A DNA stretch of 64,000 bases, taken from contig JAFECQ010000015.1 of NCBI GenBank assembly GCA_018242065.1, forward strand, positions 1 through 64,000. The letters run 5' to 3'. Positions 28,878 to 37,231 of this stretch are shown one piece after another. Within the stretch, counting starts at the first letter, position 1. Every line of letters starts with the position of its first letter. Made by a program: the position numbers and the translations under genes. The DNA comes from Pseudomonadota bacterium (GTDB lineage: Bacteria; Pseudomonadota; Alphaproteobacteria; UBA9655). The notes under the pieces were generated by a model that was not told the DNA's origin, made no database searches, and saw only the letters and a list, made by a program, of their open reading frames with translations.

Positions 28878-29330
28878 GTGAACATGCAACAGGAAAATGT
28901 TTATACTTTTCATAGTGTGGAAGAGACGGTGAACTTTGCTCATAAGATAGCCTCTCAACTGCATTTACGTGATGTTATCCTTTTAAAGGGAGAGCTAGGT
29001 GTTGGAAAGTCTGTGTTCGCGCGTGCTGTTATAAAGGCTTTGTGCGGGCAAGAAACGGAAGTGCCTAGTCCGACTTTTACATTGGTACAAACGTATCAAG
29101 CTCCTCATCTTACTCTCTGGCATTTTGATCTCTATCGGCTTAAACATCCTGAAGAAGTTTATGAATTAGGGATTGAAGAAGCCTATGCTCACGGTGTATC
29201 CCTAATTGAATGGCCTGAGCGCCTGGGTAATTTTTTACCCAAGGATTACATAGAAATCGAATTTACACATGGAAGTCACGAGAATGAACGTATCCTCTCC
29301 CTTAAAGGTTGGGACAACAGATTTTCTTGA
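28878..29330 (+). CDS. tsaE: tRNA threonylcarbamoyladenosine synthesis ATPase TsaE
   Basis: TsaE is the ATPase that works with TsaB and TsaD to make t6A at position 37 of ANN-decoding tRNAs. The P-loop is GELGVGKS (about residues 38-45); SPTFTLVQTY (about 64-73), HFDLYRL (about 82-88) and LIEWPERLG (about 110-118) are the other family blocks. The 150 residues are normal. It starts at GTG 28878 or ATG 28884; no strong ribosome binding site separates them. Its end overlaps the next gene by about 47 bp. Grouping with amgK and murU is known from many Alphaproteobacteria. Confidence 0.93.
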   Translation: MNMQQENVYTFHSVEETVNFAHKIASQLHLRDVILLKGELGVGKSVFARAVIKALCGQETEVPSPTFTLVQTYQAPHLTLWHFDLYRLKHPEEVYELGIEEAYAHGVSLIEWPERLGNFLPKDYIEIEFTHGSHENERILSLKGWDNRFS

Positions 29331-30270
29331 AGAAGAACGGTTGAGCCAACGATACTCTTTTCTTGAAAGAGAAGGGCTTGAAAAAGAGTTGCTCATTCCA
29401 CTTCCTTGTGATGCTTCTAAGCGTAGATATTTTCGTCTCTCAAATTGTTTGCTTATGGATGCTCCTCCTCCTTATGAAGATACGAGACGGTTTCATTTAA
29501 TAGCTCAACATTTACAGAGTGTAGGTCTAACGATCCCAAATATTTTTGCGGCAGACCATGATCGTGGCTTTTTATTGATCGAGGATTTGGGAGAATTACC
29601 CTATCGTAGAGCGATAGAAAAAGGATTTTCCGAAGAATTACTTTATGGGGAGACGATAAAATCTCTCGCTCATCTTCATTCCAACATGGCCCATAACACA
29701 GAAAGTATAGCTTCTTATGACCTTGAACTTTTTATTGATCGTGCTTGTCTTTTTTTTGAATGGTATGATCATTTTCTTCCTGTGGAAGCTAAGAATGAGT
29801 TCATAGAATTATGGACAGAAGTTTATAATAATCAGGCTCAAATTCCTCAAAGCCTTATCATGCGTGATGTTATGGTGGATAATCTTTTATGGTTGCCTGA
29901 CCGCAAGGGAATGAATCGTTGTGGCTTTATTGATTTTCAAGATGGTTTGTGGGGGCCGATTTCATACGATTTGGTTTCGTTACTCGAAGATGCCCGCCGG
30001 GACATTCAGCCACATTTTGCTCAGAAGATGTTAAATGTATATTTTGGTATATTTCCTAAACTTTCTCAGGAAGATTTTTGGAAAAGTTATGCACTTTGGG
30101 GAGCGCAGCGAAGCACGCGCATCTTAGGCGTTTTTTCTCGCTTGGCCAAAAGAGATGGAAAACCAAATTACCTTGCACATATACCGCGTATTTGGGGTTA
30201 TTTAAAAAGCGATTTAGAACATCCATCTCTTAGGTCTCTTAAAACTTGGTTTAAGAAAGTTATGCCATGA
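29284..30270 (+). CDS. amgK: N-acetylmuramate/N-acetylglucosamine anomeric kinase AmgK
   Basis: AmgK phosphorylates MurNAc and GlcNAc at C1 in the recycling route that by-passes de novo UDP-MurNAc synthesis. The fold is that of aminoglycoside phosphotransferases: SKRRYFRL near residues 44-51, LLIEDLGE near 98-105, the catalytic loop IMRDVMVDNLLW near 195-206 with Asp and Asn, and FIDFQDGLWGP near 219-229 with the metal Asp. The start is set at the ATG at 29284, eight bases after GGAAG; an ATG at 29269 is the alternative. The gene overlaps tsaE at its start and murU by 4 bp at its end. The assignment depends partly on that context. Confidence 0.85.
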   Translation: MNVSSPLKVGTTDFLEEERLSQRYSFLEREGLEKELLIPLPCDASKRRYFRLSNCLLMDAPPPYEDTRRFHLIAQHLQSVGLTIPNIFAADHDRGFLLIEDLGELPYRRAIEKGFSEELLYGETIKSLAHLHSNMAHNTESIASYDLELFIDRACLFFEWYDHFLPVEAKNEFIELWTEVYNNQAQIPQSLIMRDVMVDNLLWLPDRKGMNRCGFIDFQDGLWGPISYDLVSLLEDARRDIQPHFAQKMLNVYFGIFPKLSQEDFWKSYALWGAQRSTRILGVFSRLAKRDGKPNYLAHIPRIWGYLKSDLEHPSLRSLKTWFKKVMP

Positions 30271-30965
30271 TTAAAACAGCAATGATCTTAGCGGCAGGCT
30301 TAGGACAACGCATGCGCCCGCTAACAAACACAATTCCCAAACCATTGGTTTCTGTTGCAGGAAAGTGCATGCTTGAGCGAGCTTTTGAGCATATTAAGAG
30401 CGCTGGCATTTCAAAAATTGTGGTGAATAGTCATTATTTGGCTCCTTTGATAGAAGAATTTATTAAAAAAAATTATCCTGACACTTTGGTGTCTCATGAA
30501 GAAATTCTTCTTGAGACAGGGGGCGGTATTAAAAAGGCTCTTCCTCTTATAGGGGAAGGGGCCTTTTTCTCTCTAAATGGTGATAGCATCTGGACCGGCG
30601 CTAATAGTTTAATTGCAATGGAAAAATTGTGGGATCCAATAAAAATGGATGCTCTTTTGCTCCTTATTCCTCGCGACAAGGCTTACGGATATATAGGAAA
30701 GGGAGATTTTTCTATAAGTGAAAATGGGCAGTTAGCTCGTCCAGAAAAAGGTCAAGAGGCTCCTTATGTTTATATTGGGGTTCAAATTACACATTCAGCT
30801 TTTTTTGATGGAGCTCCAGAAGGTGCCTTTTCGTTAAATGTTTTATGGAACAAGTCTTTGACTCAAGGCCGTCTTTATGGATGTGTCCATCAGGGAGACT
30901 GGTTTCATATAAGTACACCAGAAGATTTAAGGGCTTTTGAGCCAATGGTGGGCATGTCGATTTAA
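30267..30965 (+). CDS. murU: N-acetylmuramate-1-phosphate uridylyltransferase MurU
   Basis: MurU turns MurNAc-1-phosphate into UDP-MurNAc, the step after AmgK. The nucleotidyltransferase signature is MILAAGLGQRMRPLT at residues 6-20 with the following KPLVSVAGKCML; the metal site is in LNGDSIW near 104-110. The 232 residues are typical. It starts in a 4-bp overlap (ATGA) with the kinase gene, so the pair is translated together. An alternative assignment would be a glucose-1-phosphate-type transferase, but the kinase next to it favours MurU. Confidence 0.85.
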   Translation: MIKTAMILAAGLGQRMRPLTNTIPKPLVSVAGKCMLERAFEHIKSAGISKIVVNSHYLAPLIEEFIKKNYPDTLVSHEEILLETGGGIKKALPLIGEGAFFSLNGDSIWTGANSLIAMEKLWDPIKMDALLLLIPRDKAYGYIGKGDFSISENGQLARPEKGQEAPYVYIGVQITHSAFFDGAPEGAFSLNVLWNKSLTQGRLYGCVHQGDWFHISTPEDLRAFEPMVGMSI

Positions 30966-31287
30966 AAGGGACAAGGTGCCTGGATTTGGAAAAATTTTGA
31001 GAGAGGCTTAATATTTTTCTGATATCCAGGCTTTATCACGCACGTACCATACAACTAGCCTTAACCAACTGACGAACAGATGAACAACCAACGTGAATGT
31101 CATTCTAGAAAAATGATTTCCATATATATATCATGGAAGTACCACTAGGAAGGTCCCCTAGGGGAACATCACCTAGGGATATTAAAAAGCAGATTGTGTT
31201 TAATCTATCTAGAGTTGAGTTTAATTCTAAGATAAATTTACGAGGAAACTTTCTTATCTTTAAAACAGGAAGAAGAGTCCATTTGAT
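30966..31287. other. Intergenic region upstream of the LuxR/NB-ARC/TPR gene
   Basis: No convincing gene is seen in these 322 bp. It holds an 8-bp inverted repeat with a long loop (GCCTGGAT at 30978-30985 and ATCCAGGC at 31024-31031) and a cluster of CCTAGG palindromes at 31154-31177. Short frames on both strands are products of the palindromes. Confidence 0.6.
31154..31165. promoter_or_regulatory. Perfect palindrome, candidate operator
   Basis: TCCCCTAGGGGA is a perfect 12-bp palindrome, with a second CCTAGGG at 31172-31178 and a partial CTAGGAAGG at 31145. It lies about 120 bp upstream of a gene that starts with a LuxR-type DNA-binding domain. Autoregulation at this site is a reasonable guess, not shown. 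Confidence 0.35.
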
Positions 31288-34200
31288 ATGCAAAAAAAAT
31301 TTGATCTTCTCCACAGTATCTATTTAGAACATTTGCAATCAATAAATGGTGTGAAACTTACACGTCGAGAAATAGACGTCATTGCCTTTTTTATCTGTGG
31401 CCGCTCCGCAAAGAAAATTGCTTCCTTTTTTGCAATTTCTCCTAAAACAGTTGAAAATCACACCCACAATATTATGTTAAAGCTTGGCTGTCATTCGCGA
31501 GAGAGTATTATTGATTTTATCGAACGATCAGATAGACTGCCTTTCTTAAGAAAGTACTATGCAACAGTTTTAGCTGAAGTTGCTTTTGAACAGTGTTTAA
31601 AAGACATTTCAAAATTACTACAAGAAGAAAATACCTCTTGTTATATCACCTATGGTTCTGAAAAATCTTCACAGGACCTTCTTATTTATCATCTAGAGTC
31701 CTCTTTAAAACTTCTTGGTGTTAGTGTTTTGACGGAAGTTCGTAATATTTCTCGTCCATTGCAGGCGATTTGTAAGAATCACTATGTGATCTATATTATG
31801 CCAAAAGATCCGACGGAAAATAAAGAGGATCTAGACGCATTGGCTAAAAGCACAAATCGTCTTCTTTTCCTTTTTCCTGAAGGCTATGATTTAAGAGAGA
31901 TATTTACGGATGAGAAGAGCGTAAACCTTTTAAATCTTACCGATCAAGAAAACTATTATCTATTGATTTTTGACATTTTAAAAATGCTGTTTCCACGCTA
32001 TAATTTTGATGGAGTTTATTCTGAATTTAATAATCAATACGAAGGTGTAGAGGGGATCACTGATCCTAATTCTCAACAAATTCCGATTGAAGAATTGACT
32101 AAAGAAATCGCGGAAGCTGATTTTTCTCGACCTGTGACCAGTAAATTTTTAAGCAACAAAAAATATGTCTTAGCAGGTTCTCTGACAATTCTTGTGCTGA
32201 TTTCTAGCTTTGTCTATGTGACAGGCGGGCAGACTTCTCTCCAGACTTTTCATACAAATAAAAATTTAGCAGGAACTGTCCCTATTCGTTCTGAATTACT
32301 TGTTCCGACGGATCCTGTTCTTCTCGATCGACCTGAGGTTATTGCTCAAATAGAGGAACGATTTAAAGGTTGGAGAGGAATTCAAGCTATTGCGCTTGTT
32401 GGTGTTGGAGGCGCAGGAAAAACGACACTTGCCCACTATTATGCAAGTTCTCAAATTCTTCCTGTCATTTGGGCCATTAACGCAGAGACAAAGGAAACGC
32501 TGAACGAATCTTTTGAAGAACTCGCGCAAGCTCTTTCAAGAACAGAAGAAGATCAAAAAATATTAAGGGGAATTCTCAAGGCAAAAATTGTAACGCAGCA
32601 AGAAGAGAATATTGTCCAATTTGTTAAGGAAAGATTACGGCTCCATTCAAATTGGCTTTTAGTTTATGATAACGTGGAGAAATTCACAGATATTCAAAAG
32701 CACTTTCCTAAGGATCCAGGCAATTGGGGGCAAGGAAGGATCATTCTCACAACAAGAGATAGTAACATCGGAAATAGTAACCGCGTCAATAATGTCATTC
32801 AGATCAAAGCCTTGAGTCCTGAGCAAAAGCTAAATCTTTTTATTAAAATTATGAGTAACGGTGGCGCTCTTTCTTATACGCCAGAGCAAACTGAAGAAGC
32901 TAAAAAATTTCTAGTTGAGATTCCTCCCTTTCCGTTAGATGTTTCGGTTGCGGCTTATTATTTAAAAGCAACGAATATCTCTTATAAAAATTATCTCGAC
33001 AACATGCTGAAATATAACAATGATTTTTCGATCGTTCAGGAAAAAATTTTGCAAGAGACAGGAGATTACACAGAAACACGTTACGGAATAATTACATTGT
33101 CTTTAAAACATCTTATTGAGACGAACAAAGATTTTAGAGATCTTTTGTATTTCATTAGTGTACTTGATTCTCAGAGCATTCCGAGGGAAATTCTTGTTAA
33201 ATTTTGCAATAATATTATTGTTGATAATTTTATATATCATTTAAAGAAATATTCGCTTGTTGCAAATGATTTTTCTTCAATAGATCGTTTGAGTTCTGAT
33301 ATCTCAATTCATCGAAGCACCCAAGCTATTATATCTGCTTATTTGAAGCAAAATTTACGGCCTGCTGAATCTAAGTCGTTACTTGAGCGTGTTGCTAATA
33401 CATTAGAAAATTATATGAGTGACGCTATCGATAAGGAAGATTTTACAAAAATGAAACTTCTTTATCGGCATGTCGAACAATTTTTGAATCATCAAGATTT
33501 GATGTCTGATAATATCAAAGGATCTTTGGGAGGAGAGCTTGGTTGTTTTTTTTACTATTTGCGTTATTTGACAAAAGCAAAGATCCTTCTTGAGGACAGC
33601 CTTTTAAAGTTGCAGAAAAAGCCTGATGAAAACCATAACAAAATTGCTCATTTTATGGTGTACCTAGGTAATGTTCATCGAAATTTAGGAGAATATGAAA
33701 CGGCTAAGAAGTTGTTTGAGAACAGTCTTCGTATTTATAATACCTATTCAGAAAATGATGTTGGGGTGGCGCGTGCATCGGGCTACTTGGGTGTTGTTTA
33801 TAAAGCTTTAGGTGATTTTTCAAAGGCGAGATCTCTCTTGGAGAGGAGTCTTGTCATTTATCGTAGATATCCAGAAAATCACATTGGACGTGCTTGGTCT
33901 TTAGCACATTTAGGAAGTGTATATTTAAGTTTGGGTGACTATGAAAAAGCAAAGGAACTTTTTGAGGAAAGTCGCCTTTTATATAAAAAATATTCTGAAA
34001 ATCACGTGGGCGCAGCATGGGTTTCTGGTGATTTAGGGGATACTTACTTAAAGTTGGGAGACTTTAAGAAAGCTAAAGAATTTATTGAAGAATGCCTCAA
34101 AATTTGCAATGAACACTTTGTTGAAGGGCATGTATATGTAGCTGAAGCATTCGTTCATCTTGGGGTGTTATATCGTGAACAAGGAGAATATGAAAAAGCG

Positions 34201-34596
34201 AAGAGCTTGTTTAAGAAAAGCTTAATAGCCTTCGAAGCAAATTATGGAAAAGATCATCCTGAAGTTGGCACTATTTTGAAAGATCTTGGGCAAGTTTATG
34301 TGTTGGAAGGAGATTTTGAAGGAGGGGAAAAAATTATAGGAGAAGCGTTCCGTATATTTCAAAAAAATAAACATCCAGATAAGTATATAATTTTAGAAAG
34401 TTTGGCTGAGCTCTACTTAAAAAAATCTCTTAGATCTGAGAAACAAGATAATAAACTGCAAGCAGAGGAATTTAAAACGTTAGCCAAGGCTTATTTGAGT
34501 CAAGCCTTTGAAATTCTTGAAACCCATTTTCCTGAAGATTCTCCTCATCGTCAGAGGATTCAATCAAAATTACGTACAATTACTTCTATTTTATGA
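31288..34596 (+). CDS. LuxR-type HTH, membrane-anchored NB-ARC NTPase with TPR repeats
   Basis: This 1102-residue protein joins several modules. Residues about 22-82 are a LuxR/GerE-type HTH: LTRREIDVIAFFICGRSAKK and the recognition helix segment SPKTVENHTHNIMLKLG. Residues about 105-235 form an alpha/beta domain (CYITYGSEKSSQDLLIYHLE, NHYVIYIMP, RLLFLFPEGYD) of unsure family, perhaps TIR-like. A single membrane segment is at about 294-312 (AGSLTILVLISSFVYV). Residues about 350-640 are a STAND/NB-ARC ATPase: P-loop GVGGAGKTT at about 372-380, Walker B LLVYDNVE near 456, and GRIILTTRD near 485. Residues about 785-1000 hold five or more TPR units (YLGNVHRNLGEYETAKKLFE and relatives). It reads like a sensor that couples ligand or protein binding at the TPR side to oligomerisation and to DNA binding across the membrane; topology and function are inference. 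The next gene codes for a large secreted repeat protein. Confidence 0.85.
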   Translation: MQKKFDLLHSIYLEHLQSINGVKLTRREIDVIAFFICGRSAKKIASFFAISPKTVENHTHNIMLKLGCHSRESIIDFIERSDRLPFLRKYYATVLAEVAFEQCLKDISKLLQEENTSCYITYGSEKSSQDLLIYHLESSLKLLGVSVLTEVRNISRPLQAICKNHYVIYIMPKDPTENKEDLDALAKSTNRLLFLFPEGYDLREIFTDEKSVNLLNLTDQENYYLLIFDILKMLFPRYNFDGVYSEFNNQYEGVEGITDPNSQQIPIEELTKEIAEADFSRPVTSKFLSNKKYVLAGSLTILVLISSFVYVTGGQTSLQTFHTNKNLAGTVPIRSELLVPTDPVLLDRPEVIAQIEERFKGWRGIQAIALVGVGGAGKTTLAHYYASSQILPVIWAINAETKETLNESFEELAQALSRTEEDQKILRGILKAKIVTQQEENIVQFVKERLRLHSNWLLVYDNVEKFTDIQKHFPKDPGNWGQGRIILTTRDSNIGNSNRVNNVIQIKALSPEQKLNLFIKIMSNGGALSYTPEQTEEAKKFLVEIPPFPLDVSVAAYYLKATNISYKNYLDNMLKYNNDFSIVQEKILQETGDYTETRYGIITLSLKHLIETNKDFRDLLYFISVLDSQSIPREILVKFCNNIIVDNFIYHLKKYSLVANDFSSIDRLSSDISIHRSTQAIISAYLKQNLRPAESKSLLERVANTLENYMSDAIDKEDFTKMKLLYRHVEQFLNHQDLMSDNIKGSLGGELGCFFYYLRYLTKAKILLEDSLLKLQKKPDENHNKIAHFMVYLGNVHRNLGEYETAKKLFENSLRIYNTYSENDVGVARASGYLGVVYKALGDFSKARSLLERSLVIYRRYPENHIGRAWSLAHLGSVYLSLGDYEKAKELFEESRLLYKKYSENHVGAAWVSGDLGDTYLKLGDFKKAKEFIEECLKICNEHFVEGHVYVAEAFVHLGVLYREQGEYEKAKSLFKKSLIAFEANYGKDHPEVGTILKDLGQVYVLEGDFEGGEKIIGEAFRIFQKNKHPDKYIILESLAELYLKKSLRSEKQDNKLQAEEFKTLAKAYLSQAFEILETHFPEDSPHRQRIQSKLRTITSIL

Positions 34597-34705: not shown

Positions 34706-37231
34706 ATGAATAAATATTTTGCAAGTTTATTGTTTTTGCTTTCGAGTACTGCATTTGTTAATTCTCCGGCTTTAAGTATGCAGGAAGATGGCTTTGGTTT
34801 TGTTAGAAGTAAACTTTCGTCCAGTTCCGATCATTCCGATGATTCAGAGGAAGACTCTTATGATGACTTAGCGGCCTTCTCTGGGGCTGATACAACAGTT
34901 GCAGTTAGCCCGCTGGATGAATTAGAAGGGTTTCTCAGTAAACAAAACTATCCCCGGGCTTTTCGTTCCATGAAGGAAGGGAATAAGGCTTCTGATAAAG
35001 AGATTGTAGCATTTCTTCTTACGAGCAACGGTTTTACAGGATGGTCGATGTTATCGCCTGTAGAGAGGGCGAGTGTGGTTGGTAGAATTGCTTATGAAGC
35101 AGATAGAGATGAGCTAGAGGAATTTTTAAGTAAACAAAACTATCCACTGGCACTTCGTTCCATGAGGGAATCAGGAAATACGGCTTCTAATGAAGAGATT
35201 GTAGCACTTCTTCTTACGAGCAATGGTTATGCAAAATGGCCTGTTCTGTCTTTAGACAAGCGTGCTTGGGTTGTTGAGAGAATCACAAGAGAAGAAGAAA
35301 TAGATCATATAAGAGGGTTTCTAAGTGGACAAGATTTCCCCCGCGCTTTTCGTTCTATGAAGGAATCAGGGAATACAGCTTCTAATGAAGAGATTGCAGA
35401 ATACCTGATTGCGAGCAATGGGTACAAAAGATGGGAATCGCTGGAAGAGGATTCCCGTCGTATGGCTTTCGAACATATTATACTAGGAGAAGACATAAAA
35501 GATCTTCAAGAATTGCTAAAGGCACGGGATTTTTCAAGTGCTTTTCGATCTATGAGAGAAGGGAATGAGGCTTCTGATAAAGAGATTGTAGCATTTCTTC
35601 TTACGAGCAACGGTTATACAAAATGGGACCGCCTGCGAGAAGATGTTAAAAGCGCGGTTGTTAATTCAATTACAGGCGAAGACCCAGTGCAATCGCTCTA
35701 TTTATTTGATGACAGAGTTGCTTTTTGGAAAGCCTATAATTTTCTCAAAGCATCTAAAGCCTTGCCTTTAGATGAGGGCGTTGTAAGGTTGATCCTTGAG
35801 CAGAAGGGATTTAAGTTTTGGGATAATCTTCCGCCTGAGGTTCGCCCTGCTGTAGTTTCTCATGTGGCTAGAGGGTATTTCATGCCGTTTCCTCAAGCTG
35901 ATGTTGGCTTGATATTGGATGAGGAACGTGCTGCTATTGCTCGTAAGCTAGAAAAGCTTACTGAAGGTATGGCGCCTAGTACATTAAGGGGAATCCTTGA
36001 TGTAGCCTCCCAAATAGATGAAAAAGATATAGAGCCTCGTGTGGCGACTATTATGGCGCATTTACCTCCGCTCTTTACACAAGGTATGACCGAAGATGAC
36101 AAAGCCTTTATTATTCAAGAGGCTCTTAAGATTAGCAGTGAGGAAATAGGTGTACGCATGGAGGTTCTTATCGCACATCAAGGCAACCTCATTCCTCCAA
36201 AGGCAAATGATTATGATAGAGCTGAGTACATTGTAAAATTCTTAAACAAAACGGTTGAACAAACCCTTGCTATGGCAAGTCATCTTAACACAGTATTTCC
36301 TGGTGGAATGACTGTACAACAAGAGCTTCGGGTGATTGATAATTTTAGAGATTTGGCGACACATCATATATCACGCATGGCTGATGTTGTTCTTAAAGAT
36401 GAGATAGATTTAGGGGTAGATGTAAGTCCTCATATAGATACTGTTGCAGAAAATATAAGTAAGGTCATTACAAGTTCTATGAATGAGCCTGATAGGAATG
36501 TTATTATTGCAGCGGCTCTTCGTATTAAGGCTCGTGGTGATATTGGGCCGCGTATGGATGCCATTTCTCGTAATGCAGGTCCTCTTTTTAAGGGTATAGT
36601 AAGTCATTCTCAAATAGCTGACCTTACCGGGGCTCTTTTAGGGAGATCTACAAGTGACATCAAGGCCATTGCACGTAAAGCTGCCACTTTATATGCTCAC
36701 CTGAGCCCAGCAGAGCAAGTTAATGCTATCGAGACTTTTGTGTCCGCGCCCGTACAGATGGTGCCCGTGTTTCCGTCCGTACAGATGGTGCCTGTGTTTC
36801 CGTCCGTACAGATGGTGCCGTTACCCGTACTGACTTTAGGTGATGTAGTAGGTGATCATGCTTTGATCATTGAGCTAGTGAAAAATGCAGGTAGAGCTCA
36901 TCAAGAAGCCATTCAAGAGAATATACACAAAGTCTTTACAGGCGAAATGAAAAAGGTAGCTAAAAGAACAATCATTCAAGCGGCACTTGGAATTGAAGCT
37001 GAAGAGATTGGACCTCGTGTGGAGGCCATTTCTCGTAATGCAGGGCTTCTTTTTAGGGGTATAAATGATAATAATCATAGAGCTCTCCTTACTGAAGCCC
37101 TGTTAACGAGAGACCCAGGTGAGATTGATCATATTGCAAGAGAGTCAGATACTCTGTATCTCAATCGTGGAGATATAAAAGAGCAAGTTAGCATAATTAA
37201 ACAAGTCGTTTTCATTTCGGACGATTGGTAA
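34706..37231 (+). CDS. Large secreted repeat protein
   Basis: The 841-residue product begins with a signal peptide (NKYFASLLFLLSSTAFVNSP, cleavage likely near residue 24) and an acidic Ser-rich spacer. Residues about 72-330 hold four tandem repeats of about 70 residues, each with a core like FLSKQNYPRAFRSMKEGN followed by SDKEIVAFLLTSNGY and W. Residues about 400-841 hold a second helical repeat type with lines such as IGPRMDAISRNAGPLF, IEPRVATIMAHLPPLF and IGPRVEAISRNAGLLF. Between them, residues about 683-706 are a short repeat VQMVPVFPS in 27-bp DNA units. No enzyme motif is seen. The build suggests a surface or exported binding protein; no family was recognised. AAGGAA precedes the ATG. 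Confidence 0.78.
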   Translation: MNKYFASLLFLLSSTAFVNSPALSMQEDGFGFVRSKLSSSSDHSDDSEEDSYDDLAAFSGADTTVAVSPLDELEGFLSKQNYPRAFRSMKEGNKASDKEIVAFLLTSNGFTGWSMLSPVERASVVGRIAYEADRDELEEFLSKQNYPLALRSMRESGNTASNEEIVALLLTSNGYAKWPVLSLDKRAWVVERITREEEIDHIRGFLSGQDFPRAFRSMKESGNTASNEEIAEYLIASNGYKRWESLEEDSRRMAFEHIILGEDIKDLQELLKARDFSSAFRSMREGNEASDKEIVAFLLTSNGYTKWDRLREDVKSAVVNSITGEDPVQSLYLFDDRVAFWKAYNFLKASKALPLDEGVVRLILEQKGFKFWDNLPPEVRPAVVSHVARGYFMPFPQADVGLILDEERAAIARKLEKLTEGMAPSTLRGILDVASQIDEKDIEPRVATIMAHLPPLFTQGMTEDDKAFIIQEALKISSEEIGVRMEVLIAHQGNLIPPKANDYDRAEYIVKFLNKTVEQTLAMASHLNTVFPGGMTVQQELRVIDNFRDLATHHISRMADVVLKDEIDLGVDVSPHIDTVAENISKVITSSMNEPDRNVIIAAALRIKARGDIGPRMDAISRNAGPLFKGIVSHSQIADLTGALLGRSTSDIKAIARKAATLYAHLSPAEQVNAIETFVSAPVQMVPVFPSVQMVPVFPSVQMVPLPVLTLGDVVGDHALIIELVKNAGRAHQEAIQENIHKVFTGEMKKVAKRTIIQAALGIEAEEIGPRVEAISRNAGLLFRGINDNNHRALLTEALLTRDPGEIDHIARESDTLYLNRGDIKEQVSIIKQVVFISDDW
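36752..36819 (+). repeat. 27-bp tandem repeat inside the secreted repeat protein
   Basis: The unit starting GTACAGATGGTGCCCGTG occurs at 36752-36778 and 36779-36805 with one base change, then a partial third copy to 36819. It codes for VQMVPVFPS units. The number of copies could change by slippage without breaking the frame. Confidence 0.85.

Follow-up and report, generated by a model that had tools for sequence, protein, structure and literature searches.

A predicted transmembrane regulator joining a LuxR-type DNA-binding domain to a periplasmic NB-ARC-TPR sensor in an ATP/ADP translocase-bearing alphaproteobacterium

The gene studied here encodes one polypeptide in which a LuxR-type DNA-binding domain and a STAND ATPase with TPR repeats are separated by a single hydrophobic helix. 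We analysed it within a window of 64,000 nucleotides (the whole stretch of DNA, positions 1 to 64,000 of contig JAFECQ010000015.1, assembly GCA_018242065.1). Based on our results, we infer that the protein is a one-component transmembrane transcription regulator which works like ToxR, with a periplasmic STAND (NB-ARC-TPR) sensor, and which regulates its own gene and controls nearby genes for secreted proteins. Judged from sequence, we give this reading a probability of about two in three.

Domain layout, nucleotide-binding residues and distribution

The order of domains within one polypeptide (Table 1) is as the initial annotation had described it, and the search for paralogues with the same order yielded 57 near-full-length homologues that align end to end, all with one domain order. 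Since the homologues share this order, the suspicion that two genes had been joined by error can be dismissed. The HTH scores 50.6 bits against a Pfam cut-off of 23.5, as expected of LuxR/GerE HTH regulators, and is present in 23/23 family members scanned; its key residues are 80-96% conserved among the 57 members. The ATPase domain scores 43.1 bits (cut-off 23.5) and, with its Walker A and B motifs, belongs to the NB-ARC/STAND class. In the AF2 model of the 1102-aa protein, which was built with six sequences only, the TPRs are confident and the NB-ARC region has low confidence.

Table 1. Features of the regulator gene and its surroundings in the window
Feature	Position	Strand	Remarks
Putative operator, 19-bp dyad CTAGGGGAACATCACCTAG	31158..31176		1 mismatch to CTARGGGANNNTCCCYTAG; 130 bp before ATG of the 31288 gene
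LuxR HTH - alpha/beta - TM - NB-ARC - TPR protein, 1102 aa	31288..34596	+	single ORF, exact coordinates
GerE/LuxR-type HTH, residues 23-77	31354..31518	+	Pfam E 1.5e-13, over cut-off
Alpha/beta, flavodoxin-like domain, residues ~113-240	31624..32007	+	predicted structure
Single transmembrane helix, residues 291-313	32158..32226	+	hydropathy, AF2
NB-ARC (STAND) ATPase domain, residues 355-556	32350..32955	+	Pfam E 4e-11
Walker A, GVGGAGKTT, residues 372-380	32401..32427	+	alignment of 57 members
Walker B-like LLVYDN, residues 457-462	32656..32673	+	alignment of 57 members
SIHRS, residues 673-677, at the probable place of the MHD motif	33304..33318	+	alignment of 57 members
TPR array, residues ~786-1045	33643..34422	+	Pfam match at residues ~790-1040, E 8e-49; AF2 blocks each with pLDDT of about 80-96
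Signal-peptide gene downstream, possible local target	34706..37231	+	linkage not conserved elsewhere

The domain that had been called an unclear alpha/beta domain is indeed alpha/beta and follows a long helix (residues 84-110). Residues 84-262, modelled alone (pLDDT 78, pTM 0.77), give a flavodoxin-like fold with many equal matches, including the TIR domains of RPS4/RRS1, none of them at E<0.001. The Foldseek match to the TIR structure 4c6t (E 8e-3, TM 0.42-0.45) equals those to flavodoxin and PurE, and neither TIR nor SEFIR is among the Pfam matches listed at E<=1 for the family members scanned; a TIR identity was therefore rejected. An ElaD/SseL-like match in one family member (E 5.5e-6) was not reproduced in ten members rescanned.

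Across the 57 members, G372, G375, G377, K378 and T379 of Walker A are 100% conserved, as are Asn462 of the Walker B-like motif and His675 of SIHRS, the latter at a place where the AF2 model has low confidence; Asp461 reaches 98%. Invariant Walker A Lys/Thr and His675, together with a near-invariant Walker B Asp, in members this divergent favour nucleotide binding.

The genome itself (1.9 Mb, 45 contigs) holds a second intact copy on contig C5; on contigs C33, C20 and C15 it has copies that are truncated or broken. Two of these are cut at contig ends (C33:1-1285, L054; the end of C20, L053), so that the copy number is a lower bound; in the third region (C15:10613-13184, L055), several matches to the LuxR-type HTH are accompanied by in-frame stops and look like degraded paralogues. 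Congeneric genomes show up to 11 family matches each. Public relatives with titles are alphaproteobacterial MAGs, one of them labelled Bacteriovoracaceae. Outside the Alphaproteobacteria, no family member was found in 399 genomes sampled across the phylum, the only matches being those of the genome studied here and of G126.

Membrane topology and the supply of ATP

The single membrane helix proposed by the initial annotation is well supported. Residues 294-312 are the sole strong hydrophobic segment (mean KD 2.11; runner-up 1.29), AF2 places one helix there, and a hydrophobic segment precedes the P-loop in 97/97 homologues of this TM class (mean KD 2.19, minimum 1.40), with 36 charged or His residues in 1843 for the 97 segments together. 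Only one of the 97 has a further segment above 1.8. In shuffled proteins a segment of >=1.4 arises in 20% of trials, but its retention in every member, in a region only ~25-30% conserved, argues against chance.

The flanks carry 4.0 K+R per 15 residues on the N-terminal side and 2.4 on the C-terminal side in the 55 members tested for charge; net charge is higher on the N-terminal side in 49/55 and the reverse in 1. Cys makes up 1.70% of residues ahead of the helix and 0.62% behind it. The flank charges place the HTH inside and therefore predict that the ATPase lies outside the inner membrane. On the basis of hydropathy, the bias in charge and signal-peptide rules of our own making, the N-in/C-out arrangement, with a cytoplasmic HTH and a periplasmic ATPase and TPR array, is likely. 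The one-helix, HTH-inside, sensor-outside plan of ToxR/CadC receptors is thus found here by prediction.

Related genomes encode a second class of NB-ARC-TPR proteins, mostly of ~770-800 aa, in which an N-terminal signal-peptide-like segment is followed by a P-loop at residue 64-95. A histidine-kinase-like gene, whose product combines HATPase_c with two TMs around ~200 aa, lies immediately upstream in 16 of the 18 such genes counted (the count omits a control and a TM-class gene whose start is uncertain), with many pairs overlapping by a few bases. A third class, at six loci, comprises proteins of 1.1-2 kaa that carry a signal-like segment at the N-terminus and have NB-ARC in the middle; three of this kind (L206, L072, L070) stand directly behind a TM-class gene. 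Among 134 NB-ARC ORFs, an in-frame P-loop goes with a TM or N-terminal segment save in L194, whose start is uncertain, in L134, where the segment is weak yet resembles a signal, and in the control L184. In the six controls, which come from non-Tlc genomes (L173, L174, L175, L176, L178, L184), no acceptable TM or signal peptide precedes NB-ARC; the highest segment values, 1.45 and 1.65, fall in apparently soluble domains. The signal-peptide class offers independent support for a predicted extracytoplasmic ATPase-TPR module.

The initial annotation had seen a tension between such a topology and a periplasm devoid of ATP. The tension does follow from the predicted topology, but the objection is weak here, where the genome encodes two Tlc ATP/ADP translocases (E 1e-197 and 1e-186). 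Tlc imports ATP over the inner membrane, which makes ATP in the periplasm plausible, and it is likely that ATP from a host reaches the periplasm of this bacterium. The presence of Tlc and the genome size would also point to host association of the bacteria that bear the family. Tlc was found in 55/385 genomes of the class, and in 12/13 family-positive genomes (scored via the NB-ARC part, TPR-only matches set aside) versus 43/372 others; Fisher p is 3e-10 in a test that ignores relatedness, and the association may reflect ancestry, because both belong to one lineage. Family members without a Tlc hit in the same genome were seen in G318 (76% complete) and G001 (83% complete). In genome G007, the orthologue of the 31288 gene is followed after ~80 bp by a Tlc gene (L107, 8482-9999). 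A review of the Holosporales cites an ATP transporter of this sort in Caedibacter (PMC11909080).

Predicted operator and neighbouring genes

The palindrome noticed upstream of the gene proved to be a 19-bp dyad specific to the family. The dyad CTARGGGANNNTCCCYTAG stands 97-144 bp before the start of most closer members (at -294 in one), and most of the divergent members are without a recognisable operator. At <=2 mismatches it was found in 15/90 family upstreams versus 7/444 others, and these 7 may include divergent neighbours sharing a promoter. Across the genome there are only two sites at <=1 mismatch, each ahead of an intact family gene, and two at 2 mismatches, ~90-130 bp before genes for two secreted proteins, one trypsin-like and the other Peptidase_C26-like; at this 2-mismatch stringency, 3 sites match the reversed pattern. 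The 14 congeneric genomes contain 13 sites at <=1 mismatch and none for the reversed pattern. Twelve of these lie ahead of family genes; the remaining one (L244) lies ahead of a gene of ~200 aa, the usual divergent neighbour of a family gene. Presence at family promoters is partly circular, because the pattern was derived there; its near absence elsewhere is not. We regard the dyad as a putative family-specific operator, which the HTH of the family may bind.

The upstream neighbour is divergent in 53/82 family loci and carries a signal peptide in 39/82, versus 59/284 background ORFs (p 4e-6). The 31288 gene differs, in that its upstream neighbour is co-directional and a signal-peptide gene begins 112 bp downstream. 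The latter, a secreted repeat protein, may be a local target; the co-occurrence that the initial annotation had suggested looking for was not conserved, as the pair is absent at orthologous loci and a relative occurs only near the second copy in the same genome. Further upstream, at 28878-30965 in the window, lie what we take to be a TsaE-like gene, then genes for an AmgK-like kinase and a MurU-like nucleotidyltransferase; among these, the profile scan covered the NTP transferase only.

Comparison with known systems, alternative readings and proposed mechanism

Regulators in which a cytoplasmic HTH is connected by one TM helix to a periplasmic sensor are known from the ToxR/CadC type, as excerpts of PMC5430869 and PMC9214523 describe. 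The protein shares this layout, but theirs is an OmpR-type HTH, whereas here GerE and not Trans_reg_C was found and a STAND ATPase with TPRs, predicted to bind nucleotide, would serve as the sensor; the protein would work alike without being a member. MalT-type transcription factors, according to passages of PMC4381067, also unite a STAND NTPase, a TPR-like sensor and a LuxR HTH in one chain, and ADP/ATP exchange and oligomerisation are described for MalT in the same passages. The HTH of MalT is C-terminal and the family has no TM, whereas here the HTH is N-terminal with a TM helix between it and the ATPase, so that membership was rejected. Plant and animal NLRs have in common with the protein an NB-ARC with P-loop, a repeat sensor and probably an MHD-like His, but the present protein is bacterial, predicted to act outside the inner membrane, and has TPR instead of LRR and a DNA-binding output. 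To our knowledge, neither an HTH nor a TM is to be expected in TPR proteins of FxSxx-COOH systems. The NCBIfam model of these (NF040586) is the best curated match (residues 346-1043, E 3.5e-59), but with 201 bits the protein falls short of the cut-off of 300 and is not a member.

Three other readings have to be weighed against the periplasmic sensor. The protein could have the predicted topology with an ATPase that is vestigial or structural, its TPRs sensing envelope or host peptides and its output depending on simple dimerisation as in CadC/ToxR. This has the precedent of the cytoplasmic HTH, TM and periplasmic sensor (excerpts of PMC5430869 and PMC9214523), but the conservation of the Walker residues and His675 over 57 divergent members makes it unlikely. 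We hold it to be quite improbable that the helix does not span the membrane (a buried helix or monotopic hairpin) and that the protein is a cytosolic MalT-like STAND regulator with its HTH at the opposite end: NB-ARC ATPases are usually cytosolic, the Walker motifs are conserved and the six proteins of non-Tlc genomes are without TM or signal peptide, but the hydropathy is held in all 97 members despite sequence drift, with hardly any charged residues, the charge is asymmetric across the helix, and the signal-peptide class bears the same ATPase-TPR module.

The idea of an immune-type receptor sensing phage, raised by the initial annotation, found no link to anti-phage systems. NB-ARC-TPR proteins do resemble STAND defence proteins, and there are weak PADLOC matches to SspC, VakA and mad8; these matches are generic TPR or weak, no specific PADLOC model was matched, one end of the protein is a DNA-binding domain and its gene has a predicted operator of its own, and its neighbours carry signal peptides with no recognised defence genes among them. 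An anti-phage or NLR-type immune receptor is thus very improbable, and a defence role was rejected.

Returning to the periplasmic STAND sensor, a possible mechanism would be that a ligand derived from the host or the envelope binds the TPRs, upon which NB-ARC would exchange ADP for ATP and oligomerise in the manner of MalT and NLRs. The oligomerised sensor could then pull the cytoplasmic HTHs together via the helix, as in ToxR/CadC receptors, and transcription would shift at its own promoter and at adjacent secreted-protein genes. The periplasmic module also appears to occur apart, where the signal-peptide protein and its histidine-kinase-like partner would form a two-component version.

In the literature searched, no periplasmic STAND ATPase is described, and nothing was found on NB-ARC in Holosporales. 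If the topology is true, STAND ATPases act outside the cytoplasm, and the periplasmic ATP of energy-parasitic bacteria would be a usable signal or energy source. Bacteria with this family may switch genes on upon host-supplied signals and ATP. More broadly, and with somewhat less than even odds, ATP-importing intracellular alphaproteobacteria may possess an expanded repertoire of NLR-like receptors outside the cytoplasm, which would draw on periplasmic ATP from the host in sensing its cytosol and would signal inward either through an HTH in the same chain or through a histidine kinase as partner. The family would then provide, again if the topology is true, a concrete host-sensing candidate with a defined operator for uncultured protist-associated bacteria.
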